This document shows, one piece after another, positions 34,375 through 39,758 of a stretch of 64,000 nucleotides of DNA. Both the position numbers and the translations under genes were made by a program. This stretch comes from an uncultured Flavobacteriaceae bacterium (GTDB lineage: Bacteria; Bacteroidota; Bacteroidia; Flavobacteriales; Flavobacteriaceae). How positions within the stretch are numbered: position 1 is the first letter of the stretch; every line of letters begins with the position of its first letter. The stretch lies in contig CALSTV010000001.1 in the NCBI GenBank assembly GCA_943789365.1, forward strand, positions 3,185,343 through 3,249,342, written 5' to 3'. The notes beneath the pieces are model-generated. The model was not told the origin of the DNA, made no database searches, and saw only the letters and a list, made by a program, of their open reading frames with translations.

Positions 34375-34872
34375 TTAATGCAAATTGATGACCTCGAAAA
34401 TGCCCTTTTCTCTATTCTTTTTTACATTGTCCCATGTGAAATACTTTCCATTCATAGAAATATAAACACCCTGGTCTAAAGTTTGTACATAGGCTAGGGA
34501 ACTACCTAAATTGAAAAGGCCATCGGAACTGCCAAACTGATAAGGAATCATGGCGCCTGTTAGCACAATTGTTTTGGCAATATTTTGTTTAGCAATCCAA
34601 GCAGCAGTTTCAACCATGGTGTCTGTACCATGTGTGATTACAATTTTATTTCCTTTACTTTCTTGGCAAGTCTTAACAATGGTGTTGCGGTGTTCTGAAG
34701 TCATTTGCAGACTGTCTACCATCATAAGTGGTATAATTTCTGTAGCCAGTAATGAACGTCCTAATCCTAACATTTCATGAAGATGAGTGTCTTTAAAATA
34801 AAGACTTCCGTTGAGTTCGTTGTATTGTTTGTCAAAGGTGCCTCCAGTGCAAATTAGTGTAATTTCCTCCAT
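34375..34872 (-). CDS. Short asparaginase-domain protein
   Basis: 165 residues corresponding only to the N-terminal domain of type I/II asparaginases. The two catalytic Thr motifs are seen: LICTGGTFDKQY and VITHGTDTMVETAAW. Full-length enzymes have about 330 residues and complete the active site with a second domain. Short forms like this are widespread in flavobacteria, so truncation is probably ancestral rather than a recent break. Whether it hydrolyses asparagine is uncertain. Its end at 34375 is clean, with no continuation recognised downstream in other frames. Confidence 0.8.
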   Translation of the reverse strand: MEEITLICTGGTFDKQYNELNGSLYFKDTHLHEMLGLGRSLLATEIIPLMMVDSLQMTSEHRNTIVKTCQESKGNKIVITHGTDTMVETAAWIAKQNIAKTIVLTGAMIPYQFGSSDGLFNLGSSLAYVQTLDQGVYISMNGKYFTWDNVKKNREKGIFEVINLH

Positions 34873-35005
34873 AGATGTTGCTTTTTTTCAAAGATACTCA
34901 AAATTTTCAGTTGATTAAGTGGGAGGATTTTAAGAAATTATGTTTTGTTTTAAACCATTCTCATATTTAAAAGTCTTACTGCCGAACCCCCTCAAGAACA
35001 AATAG

Positions 35006-36376
35006 ATGCTTTCCATTAGATTTATGCTTATTTTAGGAATTGTTTTTAGTATTTCAGCTTGTTCATCAGATACTATGGACGAAACGATTGATGAAGTAGA
35101 AACACCCAATGAAGAAGAACCACCAGTTCAAGGTGATCGACCAAATATTTTGTTGATTATAGCTGACGATATGGGGGTAGATGCCACTCCAAGTTTCGCG
35201 TCAGAATTAAATGCTACCAAACCTGTTATGCCTACTTTGTCGAATTTAATGGATACTGGATTGGTGTTCGATAATTTGTGGTCATACGCCTTGTGTTCAC
35301 CTACACGAGCATCTATTTTAACAGGGAAACATGGGTTTTCAAATGGGGTATTGGCGCCAATTCGTGGAACGATGAGTGGTGCTCATAAATCCATACATAG
35401 TTATTTAGACGAGCAAACAAACAATGCCTATGCACATGCTGTGTTTGGAAAATGGCATTTAGGCGCTGTTACCACACATCCAACTCAAACAATGGGCGTT
35501 GGCACCTATTCGGGAAATCTTAGTGGAGGCGTAAGTAGTTTTTGGGATTACAGTTTGGTAGTGAATGAAGAAGAAACCATATCGAACGTATACAGTACTA
35601 CACAGTATACGCAATTGGCCATAGATTGGAAGAACGAACAAACAAAACCTTGGTTTATTTGGTTGGCGTACAACGCTGCACATACACCTTTCCACAGACC
35701 CGACAATACCGTGTTAGATGTCAATTCTCCATCACGTTCCTTGCCAGACTATGTAGCAGGGCAAAGTGCACCGTTACCTTATTATCTGGCAATGTTGGAA
35801 GCCATGGATTTTGAAATGGGTAGGTTGATAAACGGAATGTCGGAAACAGAAAGAGAAAACACGGTGATTATTTTTATTGGAGACAACGGTTCACCCAAAA
35901 AAGTGGATCAATACCCTGGAACTAAACATGGGAAAGGATCAATCTATCAGGGAGGCGTAAATGTACCACTGGTGATATCTGGAAATGGAGTTCGCTTGGG
36001 AAGAGAAGAATCGGCACTGTTGAATACGACTGATTTGTTTGCTACCATTGCAGAGATTGCGGGTGTTACCATGGCTTCAGTATATCATCACAGTCAAAGC
36101 TTTAAGGATTTATTATATGATGAAAATGCGACAACACGTGAATTCGTGTATGTAGAGGTTCCAGGGGATGGTGATAATGGTTCTTATGCAGTTCGTAATG
36201 CCGACTATAAATTAATCCATGAGATTGATAGCGGACGAGAAGAAATGTATCATATAGTTGAGGATGCTAATGAAACCAACGATTTGTTATCGGAGGATCA
36301 TGTGTTGACAAGTGAAGAAATGCAAAATTTAACTGAGCTTCAGGACGAAGGACTAAGGCTTAGAAACGAAAGTTAG
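35006..36376 (+). CDS. Sulfatase lipoprotein (S1 family)
   Basis: 456 residues. MLSIRFMLILGIVFSISAC is a lipoprotein signal (lipobox ISAC). The sulfatase core begins RPNILLIIADDMGVDATPSF with metal-binding Asp residues and has the formylglycine signature CSPTRASILTGKHG, where Cys is converted by a maturase. VIIFIGDNGSPKKVD supplies the second metal-binding Asp-Asn pair. It should release sulfate from a sulfated glycan or aryl ester at the cell surface. The maturase is not in the window. It lies 14 kb from the fucosidase locus, so joint action on a fucan is possible but unproven. Confidence 0.92.
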   Translation: MLSIRFMLILGIVFSISACSSDTMDETIDEVETPNEEEPPVQGDRPNILLIIADDMGVDATPSFASELNATKPVMPTLSNLMDTGLVFDNLWSYALCSPTRASILTGKHGFSNGVLAPIRGTMSGAHKSIHSYLDEQTNNAYAHAVFGKWHLGAVTTHPTQTMGVGTYSGNLSGGVSSFWDYSLVVNEEETISNVYSTTQYTQLAIDWKNEQTKPWFIWLAYNAAHTPFHRPDNTVLDVNSPSRSLPDYVAGQSAPLPYYLAMLEAMDFEMGRLINGMSETERENTVIIFIGDNGSPKKVDQYPGTKHGKGSIYQGGVNVPLVISGNGVRLGREESALLNTTDLFATIAEIAGVTMASVYHHSQSFKDLLYDENATTREFVYVEVPGDGDNGSYAVRNADYKLIHEIDSGREEMYHIVEDANETNDLLSEDHVLTSEEMQNLTELQDEGLRLRNES

Positions 36377-36499: not shown

Positions 36500-36964
36500 C
36501 TATTGCTTTTTCGGTTTTTGTTTGTTCAGTCTTCTTAAAACTTTCATGTTAAATTCGATTTCAGCAACATGAAGTTTTAGCAATTGTTTTGGCGTCAAAA
36601 CGGTTTCTAGTTTCTTGAAATACGCCTTTTTATTTTCGAGAAGTTTTTCGTCAATCCGAACAAATTTATGAGCAAGAGTAAGCGCTTCGGTATCGTTCAT
36701 GTCTTCGATAGCTCCTGAACGTTCTACTTCATTTTTTATTTTTTGCAATTCTGAAGATCTCAGTTTTCTATTGATTTGCTCAAATTCATTAAAAATAGGC
36801 CAAAAAACTTCGGCAGTTTCCGCAGATAAGTTCAATTCAGTAGAAATAAAGTTTACTTTAAGTGTACGTATTTTTGAATAGTTGCCACCACCTTTTTTCT
36901 GGGCAGAAACCATCGTGGTAGCCAAGAAAAAAAGAAGTAGGTAGAGAGAAGTTGCTTTTTTCAT
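36500..36964 (-). CDS. Spy-like periplasmic protein of unknown function
   Basis: 154 residues from the ATG at 36964 (MKKATSLYLLLFFLATTMVSAQ, signal peptide). The mature part is mostly helical and highly charged, with FISTELNLSAETAEVFWPIFNEFEQ and LLENKKAYFKKLETVLTPKQLLKLHVAEIEF. This resembles the Spy/CpxP (LTXXQ) style of periplasmic chaperone-like proteins. The gene follows the repeat-bearing membrane protein by four bases in a sigma-factor operon, so it may be a target or sensor component. The frame extends to 36994, but the signal peptide begins at 36964. Confidence 0.75.
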   Translation of the reverse strand: MKKATSLYLLLFFLATTMVSAQKKGGGNYSKIRTLKVNFISTELNLSAETAEVFWPIFNEFEQINRKLRSSELQKIKNEVERSGAIEDMNDTEALTLAHKFVRIDEKLLENKKAYFKKLETVLTPKQLLKLHVAEIEFNMKVLRRLNKQKPKKQ

Positions 36965-36968
36965 AATC

Positions 36969-37658
36969 TTAATTGTATAAATATTCAGGATCAACAGTGT
37001 CTAAATAATCATTGAGTTCTTCGTCACTAATATCCTCGTAGATAAAACTTGCGCTATTCAAAACAGTAGCGTCTATCGAAGCAATATCATAACTGTTTAC
37101 ATCCATATTACCGTCTTTGATCCATTCATTAATTTCGGTAACAGTCAAAGCGTCAAAGTTGACTTCCATGTTTTCTTGAGGTCTGTTAAAGCCAAAATAA
37201 AGTACTAGAATGGCGGCGGCACTGCTCACAAAAGGAATCACGAGGTTTCGAAGTTTCTTTTTAGACCTCTCTTTTGGTACCGCTGCAATAAGGTTTTCTT
37301 CTATGTCAGTAAAATAGTTTTCCGGATTTATAAACCCTGTTTCTTTAGGGAATTCTTCACTGTTTATTTTAGCGAGAAGTTCATTTTCAAAATTGCTGAA
37401 GTACTTTTCGGGTGTGTTAAAACCAGTGTTTTTAGGAATTGCGTCCTCAGAAATAGTAGAGAGCAATTCCGTTTCAAAATTAGCGAAGTAGTTGTCAGGA
37501 GTAGTATAACCAGTTTCTTTTGGAAACGATTCTGAATGGATACGAGCTTCGATCGCGTCGTCCAATGTATCAAAATAGTCATCTGGAGTTGAAAAACCGT
37601 GTCGTTTTCCAACCAATGCATCAATGCGTTCCAGTGCTTTTTTTAGTTCTTTGTCCAT
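36969..37658 (-). CDS. Anti-sigma-like membrane protein with four 29-residue repeats
   Basis: 229 residues. Residues 21-131 hold four repeats of the form G-F/Y-x-T/N-P-x-x-Y-F-x-x-(I/L/F)-E, starting at residues 21, 50, 79 and 108, exactly 29 residues apart (for example TGFNTPEKYFSNFENELL). A single membrane segment follows (about 138-156, VIPFVSSAAAILVLYFGF), then a periplasmic tail rich in acidic residues. Topology and position immediately after an ECF sigma gene suggest an anti-sigma role, with the repeats facing the cytoplasm. No zinc-finger anti-sigma motif is present. The sigma gene itself is interrupted. Confidence 0.72.
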   Translation of the reverse strand: MDKELKKALERIDALVGKRHGFSTPDDYFDTLDDAIEARIHSESFPKETGYTTPDNYFANFETELLSTISEDAIPKNTGFNTPEKYFSNFENELLAKINSEEFPKETGFINPENYFTDIEENLIAAVPKERSKKKLRNLVIPFVSSAAAILVLYFGFNRPQENMEVNFDALTVTEINEWIKDGNMDVNSYDIASIDATVLNSASFIYEDISDEELNDYLDTVDPEYLYN

Positions 37659-37689: not shown

Positions 37690-38232
37690 TTAATGATTCT
37701 CTAGTTGCTCTTTTATTTTTTTTACAGCGTGAAAATAGGAGGCCTTTAATGCGCCTACCGATGTGCCTAATATTTCTGAAATCTCATCGTATTTTAGGTT
37801 GTCGAAATACTTCATATTAAATACAAGTCGTTGCTTTTCAGGTAGTTTTTGAATTGCTTTTTGCAATAATAATTGAATGGAATCTCCATCAAAAAGAATA
37901 TCTTGTTGCAGTGAATAAACTGAATTCATATGAAGGTCATCAATGTCTACATTCCGTTCTTTTGCTCTTTTATTGATAAAGGTAATGGCTTCGTTTGTGG
38001 CAATTCTGTACATCCATGAAAACAATTTACTATCTCCTTTGAAGTTTTGAATACCTCTATGTACTTTGACAAAGGTGTTTTGCTAAACATCATTTGTGTC
38101 CTCATGGGAAATAAGAATCTTACGAATATGCCAATACAATCTTTCTTTATAATCGCGAACGAGCGTTAGAAACGCCTTGTCACGCGTTTTAGGGTTTTTT
38201 AGTTGTTCGATAAACAGTTGCTCGTCTTCCAA
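37690..38232 (-). pseudogene. ECF sigma factor gene with in-frame amber codon
   Basis: Read from TTG 38232 the frame gives LEDEQLFIEQLKNPKTRDKA... (first residue Met in practice), then ISHEDTNDV, TAG at 38085-38083, and continues without shift QNTFVKVHRG...KLFSWMYRIATNEAITF. It ends with a complete region 4 (LPEKQRLVFNMKYFDNLKYDEISEILGTSVGALK). Sigma factors of this type have Leu at the TAG position (DVLQNTF), so TTG to TAG is a one-base change. The intact product would be 180 residues. The downstream fragment lacks regions 2.1-2.2, needed for core binding. It heads an operon with the repeat-bearing membrane protein (31-base gap) and the Spy-like protein. Confidence 0.85.
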
Positions 38233-38267: not shown

Positions 38268-39758
38268 TTAACTATTCTTGGTTTGTTTTTTAATTGCGGA
38301 ATAGCCAAACAAACGTCTGGTTTTTATAAGTTCTGAAATTCCTTCAGGAAGCATTTCTTCCCAGCCTTTTTCTGAGTTAGCAATCATGGATAGGATTTTC
38401 CTTGAGAACACCTCTAATATTTCAGGATTGTATTCTTTTATATCAACCAGTTTTCCATTGTTTTTGAAGAATTTATACAATTCTTTCATTCTTGGGTGTA
38501 CAATTAGATTCTCGCTGGTTACAATTTCTTTGGATCCTTTTTGTTTTAAGGGATACATATAAATTTTTAAATCCTTAAAAAAGAGTTTTCCAAAAGCCTC
38601 TAAAATACCCCCACTTAGATCTCTATAATATTTTTGATCGAAAATATTTACCAAGCTCTCAACTCCCATAGCTAATGCCATACGCGCTTTTGTAAACTCA
38701 CTAAAGTATTCGACAATTTTGTAGTATTCCTGGAAATTGGTAATCATTACATTCTGTCCAAGAGAACATAATAGTTCGGCACGATCTAAAAAATCACGTT
38801 CATTAATTTTACCTTCTTTACGCAAATTAGCCAATGTAATTTCAAAGATAATTTTGGTATTTTCTTTGTCCACCTTATTTTCATTAAAAAACAAAGTTTT
38901 AGAGTTTTCAAACATGTCCATGTTTACCTTGGTAACAGGTCTAAAACTTCCTCTTAAAGCCAAAATATTTTTCTTGTACAGTACCTGAGCGGGCAATAGA
39001 TTTCTACCGCTAGAGTCAAACATTACTGCATTGGTCATGTCGTTTTTAACCAATTGAAGACTCATCAATCTATTGTCAACATACATAAATCTTGGACCCG
39101 AAAAATTAATCATGTCAATTTCGAGTTGATCCTTGTCTATATTGTCATAAAGAGAAACAAGTAACTCTTTTGGGTTGTCGTTCATATAAAAGGCACCATA
39201 AATGAGGTTTACACCTAATTTACCAAGTGTTTCTTGCTGAAGTGTGGCATCCGTTTCTTTAAATCTCAAATGCAGTACAATTTCATTATACTCTTCTAGG
39301 GGATCTAATTGAAATCTAATTCCTACCCAGCCATGGCCTTTGAATTTTTTTGCAAAATCTATGGTAGCTACCGTATTTGCATAGCTAAAGAAAAATTTAT
39401 TGGGGTGTTTTGCCCTACTCAATCTGTCTTCCATAAGACGAATTTCGTGCTTTAGCATTTTTTTGAGACGTACTTCTTTTACATAACGTCTATCGTCTTC
39501 TATGCCATAGATTGCGTCGGAGAAATCTTTGTCATAAGCACTCATGGCTTTTGCAATCGTACCGGAGGAACCTCCTGTTCTAAAAAAATTACGAACGGTT
39601 TCTTGACCAGCACCAATTTCAGAAAAGGTTCCGTAAATATTTTCGTTTAAATTTATTCTAAGCGATTTCCCTTTTATTGTTGGGATGTTGCTGATTTCTT
39701 TATCTCCTTTTAAAGTAACTGCCATTGCTGATGAAAGTGATTGTTGGATTTCTAACAA
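38268..39758 (-). CDS. Conserved flavobacterial protein of unknown function
   Basis: 496 residues without signal peptide or membrane segments. Conserved-looking blocks include NENIYGTFSEIGAGQETVRNFFR, SGTIAKAMSAYDKDFSDAIYG, FFSYANTVATIDFAKKFKGHGW and GVNLIYGAFYMNDNPKELL. I recognise it as a widely conserved Bacteroidota protein, but not with a proven activity. Some database names refer to nucleotidyl transferase activity, and I do not see the motif that would support that. It is divergent from the MBL-fold gene. The invariant Gly/Asn-rich N-terminal block suggests an enzyme. Confidence 0.75.
   Translation of the reverse strand: MLEIQQSLSSAMAVTLKGDKEISNIPTIKGKSLRINLNENIYGTFSEIGAGQETVRNFFRTGGSSGTIAKAMSAYDKDFSDAIYGIEDDRRYVKEVRLKKMLKHEIRLMEDRLSRAKHPNKFFFSYANTVATIDFAKKFKGHGWVGIRFQLDPLEEYNEIVLHLRFKETDATLQQETLGKLGVNLIYGAFYMNDNPKELLVSLYDNIDKDQLEIDMINFSGPRFMYVDNRLMSLQLVKNDMTNAVMFDSSGRNLLPAQVLYKKNILALRGSFRPVTKVNMDMFENSKTLFFNENKVDKENTKIIFEITLANLRKEGKINERDFLDRAELLCSLGQNVMITNFQEYYKIVEYFSEFTKARMALAMGVESLVNIFDQKYYRDLSGGILEAFGKLFFKDLKIYMYPLKQKGSKEIVTSENLIVHPRMKELYKFFKNNGKLVDIKEYNPEILEVFSRKILSMIANSEKGWEEMLPEGISELIKTRRLFGYSAIKKQTKNS

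Follow-up and report, generated by a model that had tools for sequence, protein, structure and literature searches.

A single in-frame amber codon interrupts an otherwise undecayed ECF sigma factor gene in a Flavicella genome

In the 64,000-nucleotide stretch of DNA analyzed here (the window), a gene of the ECF (group IV) sigma factor family is interrupted by one amber codon, TAG, at codon 50, while the rest of the gene shows no decay and its two downstream neighbors are open. The reading that we regard as probable is that this is a natural and recent loss-of-function allele, and that the affected protein is the sigma factor of a three-gene envelope-stress system composed of the ECF sigma factor, a repeat-bearing anti-sigma-like protein and a Spy/CnrX-like protein. 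A motif with the features of an ECF promoter begins within the terminal stop codon of the same gene. The coordinates of all features are collected in Table 1.

Table 1. Features of the sigma factor locus and of the nearby candidate target (positions in the window)
Feature	Position	Strand	Remarks
Conserved upstream gene	38268..39758	-	35 nt between its end and the sigma start
ECF sigma factor gene, interrupted	37690..38232	-	TTG start, TAA end; 180 codons plus terminal stop
N-terminal piece of sigma gene	38086..38232	-	49 codons
In-frame TAG, codon 50	38083..38085	-	in sigma domain 2; Leu in 107/109 relatives
C-terminal piece of sigma gene	37690..38082	-	130 codons; end of sigma region 2 and whole region 4
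Terminal stop TAA of sigma gene	37692-37690	-
Probable ECF promoter, AAACCTTT-N13-GTCTAA	37665..37691	-	exact motif match
Anti-sigma-like gene	36969..37658	-	four N-terminal repeats (GF.TP..YF type), then a hydrophobic stretch
Gene for Spy/CnrX-like exported helical protein	36500..36994	-	likely ATG start at 36964
Sulfatase gene, lipoprotein-type signal	35006..36376	+	possible sigma target gene
Two-mismatch motif variant, AAACCATT-N13-GTCTTA	34952..34978	+	27 nt before the sulfatase ATG

An earlier note on this DNA had described the locus as a minus-strand frame that is open from end to end except for one TAG, and direct translation bears this out: the codon, flanked by ...HEDTNDV on one side and QNTFVKV... 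on the other, is the sole internal stop of the frame, and no frameshift is involved. It falls in what we take to be region 2.2 of sigma domain 2. The identification as an ECF sigma factor gene, made in the same note, is upheld by matches to Sigma70_r4_2, Sigma70_r2 and TIGR02937 and to known structures. The C-terminal piece alone scores 59.7 bits against Sigma70_r4_2, 26.2 bits against Sigma70_r2 (profile positions 28-70 of 71) and 75.2 bits against the sigma70-ECF family TIGR02937 (cut-off 42.9), and a full-length query with X in place of the stop matches the SigH, RpoE and SigW structures; the N-terminal piece alone (48 of its 49 codons queried, 38088-38232) has no Pfam or NCBIfam match. The gene thus has domains 2 and 4, no domain 3 and fewer than about 200 residues, which are the marks of group IV, but owing to the TAG at codon 50 it does not encode a single uninterrupted product; it is a broken member of that family. 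Its TTG start is not unusual, since the three genus-mates that have the gene also show a non-ATG codon, GTG, at the corresponding end (as judged by eye). The in-frame restart after the TAG, among ORFs of at least 50 aa, is a TTG at 38025, 19 codons further on, with 111 aa. The source genome (3.73 Mb in three contigs, the main contig 3.69 Mb; 99.84% complete) contains the sigma gene in single copy, and a backup paralogue was rejected, the next best match in the genome being only 25% identical.

The frame is not a product of chance, for in all 109 relative loci (106 of them distinct) the gene is open over its whole length, and the column of the stop holds Leu in 107 of them, Thr in one and Ala in one, just as the earlier note had expected for Leu. 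These loci come from two collections in which some species occur twice, and the 106 distinct relatives were used for conservation and for the motif registers; because they are best-hit sets, broken or diverged copies of the gene are under-represented among them. The one-base step from TTG to TAG named in the earlier note is no more than a candidate, as the relatives use six different Leu codons in this column. That note had also called for an alignment to relatives, and in it none of the 109 begins or ends at the point of the stop, which favours a true interruption. Of the 299 family genomes surveyed (this one included), 262 yielded a match to the gene at E <= 1e-40, as did 233 of the 249 more complete ones, and 37 of the 299 gave no close match at that threshold; among the matches listed, only the gene studied here has an internal stop. 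For G003 and G005, two of the five genus-mates examined (about 1.8 Mb each, the former 87% complete), the matches are distant ones only, with best E-values of 4e-11 and 2e-10, and smaller genomes of the genus may have lost the gene altogether. The genus-mates include Flavicella sediminum, in which a second sigma gene (G002:C67:81188-81715) lies about 16 kb from the orthologue and is 47% identical; no counterpart of this paralogue was found in the source genome.

Apart from the stop, the sequence looks like that of a working copy. None of the 49 near-invariant columns (those at least 97% uniform in the other relatives, 10 before and 39 after the stop, whose own column was left out) deviates from the consensus, and the median relative also deviates at none. 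Compared across four members of the genus, the gene has 7 unique residue changes in 177 positions, versus 5, 10 and 13 in the others, and its mean identity to the other sequences is slightly low (0.626 versus a median of 0.650, rank 93 of 107). Slow decay of the gene was rejected on the strength of the unchanged near-invariant columns and the lack of an excess of unique changes. The stop appears to be young, because about 0.03 neutral substitutions per site would lead one to expect three changes in the 39 near-invariant codons that follow it, yet third positions differ by 0.53 from the nearest relative. Pairwise dN/dS was uninformative, as the NG86 method returned no dS for pairs that include this gene, and 2.6-3.5 for the other pairs. 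Selection acted on the gene up to a very recent date, and if the base is wrong it still does.

Both genes downstream of the sigma gene have open frames, as had been claimed for them. The order of upstream gene, sigma gene, anti-sigma-like gene and Spy-like gene is kept in three genus-mates (L003-L005), and a tblastn survey of 84 of the 109 loci found the anti-sigma gene in 71 and the Spy-like gene in 80, as well as the upstream gene, with which the sigma gene may be transcribed, in 43. A gene set of the CirYZ-spy or CnrYXH type therefore stands side by side at this locus. The anti-sigma-like protein has no Pfam or NCBIfam match and its profile retrieved nothing convincing from the PDB; from its position and hydrophobic stretch we infer that it would bind and inhibit the sigma factor across the membrane. 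Its four repeats compare with 0-3 in 82 loci, and its 229 aa exceed both the median (178) and the maximum (210) of the same set (repeats were counted by a simple pattern, and some loci are one species twice). The model of the Spy-like protein (query without the first Met; alignment of 31/73 usable relatives) has five predicted helices, the first of them signal-like, at a mean pLDDT of 88.6. No Foldseek match to this model reached E <= 0.001: a Salmonella protein, STV, came first (E 0.073), followed mostly by CnrX (E of at least 0.17), with CpxP at rank 19. A sequence search of the PDB gave nothing relevant for this protein, and Metal_resist was found in three and LTXXQ in one of 32 Spy-like members, neither of them in the protein studied here. 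On the model, kinship with the Spy/CnrX/CpxP fold is likely, short of proof. Elsewhere on the minus strand of the window, a 165-aa protein (34375-34872) matches only the N-terminal asparaginase domain (PF00710), and a similar short frame was seen by eye behind the Spy-like gene of another locus (L032).

The promoter-like motif at the end of the sigma gene shares its first two bases with the last two bases of the TAA stop and ends 6 nt before the ATG of the anti-sigma gene. When the 106 distinct relatives were anchored on the sigma stop, two boxes became apparent: TTAAACCTTT, which covers the stop, and GTCWWA, which follows AAACC at a distance of 16 nt. In this register AAACC-N16-GTCnnA occurs in 64 of the 106, versus 1 in 50,817 start positions inside sigma genes (the script also allowed AACC), and a looser scan near the stop recovered the motif in 77 of 109 loci. 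The stop codon of the 106 is TAA in 102, TGA in three and TAG in one. In 59 of the 82 loci where a next gene was found, that gene starts 30-33 nt after the sigma stop, or 5-8 nt past the second box, so its mRNA would be leaderless or nearly leaderless if the motif is a promoter; a share of 5.5% leaderless mRNAs is given for Flavobacterium psychrophilum in PMC9723704. In the part of the literature searched, the motif led, by title or abstract opening, to work on Bacillus and Caulobacter.

A similar motif stands upstream of the sigma gene in 72 of the 109 loci (one of which has no upstream DNA). With up to two mismatches allowed over 150 bases, none was found upstream here, nor in any of the three gene-bearing genus-mates; these four sigma genes lack the sigma-type promoter of an autoregulated ECF factor, and to judge from the DNA the sigma gene in Flavicella does not look self-regulated. 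The statement in the earlier note that the amber codon would switch off the regulator of its own operon needs refinement for Flavicella, where the motif follows the sigma gene and none precedes it: what would be lost is drive on the post-sigma site, and self-regulation of the sigma gene looks doubtful. In two of the genus-mates (L003 and L005) an almost identical stretch, AAAAAAATAATTTCGTAAACTTAC, was seen by eye before the sigma gene instead of the ECF motif, and the window lacks it. Judged from sequence alone, the motif is a predicted promoter of this sigma factor. On balance, and with some reserve, we favour the view that the sigma stop codon lies in the -35 box of a promoter read by the sigma factor itself, that the anti-sigma mRNA is nearly leaderless, and that the strain is a natural null. 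Were this so, negative feedback would run by way of the sigma gene's final codon.

Other possible members of the regulon were sought with the same motif. A scan of the window with up to two mismatches gave three matches, no more than chance allows (three were reached in 24 of 100 shuffles, with a mean of 1.70), so that the variant before the sulfatase does not stand out by number; only the post-sigma site among the three is exact. In the whole source genome AAACCWTT-N13-GTCWWA gave seven sites, versus two for the backward control, and spacers of N10-12 gave none. Of the seven, two fall within long opposite-strand frames and one is separated from a gene start by 162 nt; about four look to have the position of a promoter, with a distance to the gene start of 6 nt for the anti-sigma-like protein, 27 nt for the sulfatase, 30 nt for a Porph_ging-family protein and 32 nt for a lipoprotein. 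In G020, too, a sulfatase (44% identical) follows the motif, as does the lipoprotein (34-35% identical) in G012 and in G019; because these loci were picked for the motif, the independent evidence lies in the kinship of the genes behind it. The F. sediminum sulfatase (59%) adjoins the same operon and has a weaker site, AAACT-N16-GTC (two substitutions allowed). No motif was found for a sulfatase-like gene of G001 (25%), and the Porph_ging protein has no homologue in the loci searched. Across 40 genomes (G000 included) the strict motif gave 38 sites among those listed, versus 14 control matches; 19 of the 40 have no site, and in G002, G003, G015, G037, G040 and G049 controls outnumber sites. Many of the 30 sites looked at precede sigma, anti-sigma, Spy-like, sulfatase and lipoprotein genes, and some strict-motif sites are inside genes or have no gene behind them. 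The sulfatase is listed as a possible target gene. Loss of the sigma factor would remove the drive on the post-sigma site, which would serve the anti-sigma and Spy-like genes, and probably that on a small number of genes for exported proteins.

The main rival to a natural null allele is that the TAG arose as an error of base calling or assembly, or that the consensus took up a minority allele, in which case the living strain would be intact. We hold this to be unlikely, while giving it real weight, for the gene looks functional except in one codon, it is one that most of the family keeps, and its partner genes and the motif are intact; intact targets and the lack of decay fit a sequencing error equally well, and lack of decay cannot separate a recent break from a wrong base. 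What speaks against it is that deep or polished assemblies seldom contain isolated wrong substitutions and that the surroundings of the gene are clean. Among 48 neighboring genes compared, no counterpart extends more than 15 residues past the stop of the gene in this genome. Within 224 kb around the sigma gene, where 70 of 227 relative ORFs were comparable (two relatives were used, one gene may count twice, and flagged rows were judged from coordinates), it is the sole single-copy gene seen broken: three of the 16 flagged rows are the sigma gene itself (one of them through a 47% paralogue as query), a fourth is a shadow ORF that runs antisense to the Spy-like gene, and the other 12 are overlapping matches of tandem paralogues. 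In view of these two comparisons a generally poor assembly was rejected for the 224 kb, and the neighborhood is neither error-rich nor pseudogene-rich.

The remaining alternatives accept the codon and differ about its consequences or its cause. If the amber codon were read through or recoded, whether by a suppressor tRNA, by genome-wide reassignment or by programmed readthrough, the outcome would be a low, tuned level of sigma factor; the frame after the stop is indeed well conserved, and the stop is followed by CAA, a context known to be leaky in some viruses. The earlier note had claimed loss of function unless the codon is read through, and readthrough fares poorly on RF1, the tRNA set and TAG usage alike, which makes it very improbable. 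RF1 is present, over its cut-off, and no CUA anticodon occurs in the 49 tRNAs obtained with a covariance model and all read by ARAGORN, although an odd tRNA could have been missed, as scoring covered 150 of the 300 candidates. In the 224 kb TAG has the look of an ordinary stop: it terminates 27 of the 137 ORFs with 150 aa or more, and for the nine TAG-ended ORFs among the 48 with a counterpart in two genus-mates, every counterpart is at most 15 residues longer. Neither a CUA tRNA, nor loss of RF1, nor TAG inside other conserved genes (checked in the 224 kb) was found, a stop at codon 50 occurs in none of the 109 relatives, and the other matches are listed without an internal stop. Low-level misreading of UAG by ordinary tRNAs may occur and counts against a strictly null reading. 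Lower still do we rate the chance that the two pieces form a split sigma factor or that the 111-aa restart product alone acts as a modulator. Two-part sigma factors exist in Bacillus and region 4 is whole in the second piece, but the cut falls inside domain 2, as the profile positions covered by that piece indicate, and not between domains, the listed restart is 19 codons away and uses TTG, and none of the 109 relatives is split. An improbable, if less far-fetched, course of events is that the anti-sigma gene changed first, its longer repeats leaving the sigma factor unrestrained and costly so that its loss was selected. The repeat number and length of the anti-sigma-like protein, both beyond the range of the other 82 loci, are in keeping with this, but the expansion may be older and unrelated.

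With a recent natural loss of the sigma factor as the preferred reading, the locus may be compared with systems already described. The CirY/CirZ-spy system of Phocaeicola vulgatus likewise has an ECF sigma factor, an anti-sigma factor and a co-transcribed Spy-like gene in one operon, and deletion of the anti-sigma gene is described there as inducing cirY, spy and two downstream envelope genes (PMC13114119). CirY, however, is intact and raises its own transcription (PMC13114119), whereas the sigma gene here is interrupted and has no upstream motif in Flavicella. The likeness to CirY is one of gene arrangement, not of sequence comparison. CnrYXH of Cupriavidus metallidurans also combines a sigma factor, a membrane anti-sigma factor and a periplasmic helical sensor, in a gene order unlike that found here, and most of the top-ranking Foldseek matches to the Spy-like model are CnrX structures, but with weak E-values and behind another protein. 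A parallel for the lesion itself is found in E. coli K-12, for which suppressor strains are known. In some K-12 strains the sigma gene rpoS is lost to a single TAG at codon 33, where other K-12 strains have sense codons (PMC2700278); rpoS, however, encodes a general stress sigma factor and not an ECF factor, and the case presented here is one genome. The SM6 motif of F. psychrophilum is described as preceding type IX secretion and other genes (PMC9723704), whereas the AAACC and GTC boxes reported here precede sigma, anti-sigma, Spy-like, sulfatase and lipoprotein genes; the two are set apart by that description and not by a logo, and may overlap.

In the intact system, stress would be passed by way of the Spy/CnrX-like protein, acting as a sensor or a chaperone, and the anti-sigma factor, and the sigma factor would thereby be freed. 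It would then direct RNA polymerase to promoters of the form AAACCTTT-N13-GTCTAA, of which the one starting in the sigma stop codon would drive the anti-sigma and spy genes almost without a leader, and others would drive genes for exported proteins. In the genome studied here translation would stop after 49 residues; because it ends before the core-binding part of domain 2 is complete, no working sigma factor should be made, and neither piece would serve as one. The anti-sigma gene, the Spy-like gene and the promoter-like sites would remain intact but unserved.

In these marine bacteria the probable stress switch is widespread across the family and apparently little studied; no description of the system in Flavobacteriaceae was met in the titles and abstract openings of the part of the literature searched. 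The amber codon taken alone is an ordinary pseudogene event, and what is newer is the probable promoter that begins within the stop codon, which offers a testable binding site together with a predicted regulon of anti-sigma, Spy-like, sulfatase and lipoprotein genes. A natural null strain, together with two genus-mates that lack the gene, suggests that the sigma factor is dispensable. If the reading is right, this is a sigma-null strain that has kept its target promoters, and the regulon could be read by comparison with its relatives.
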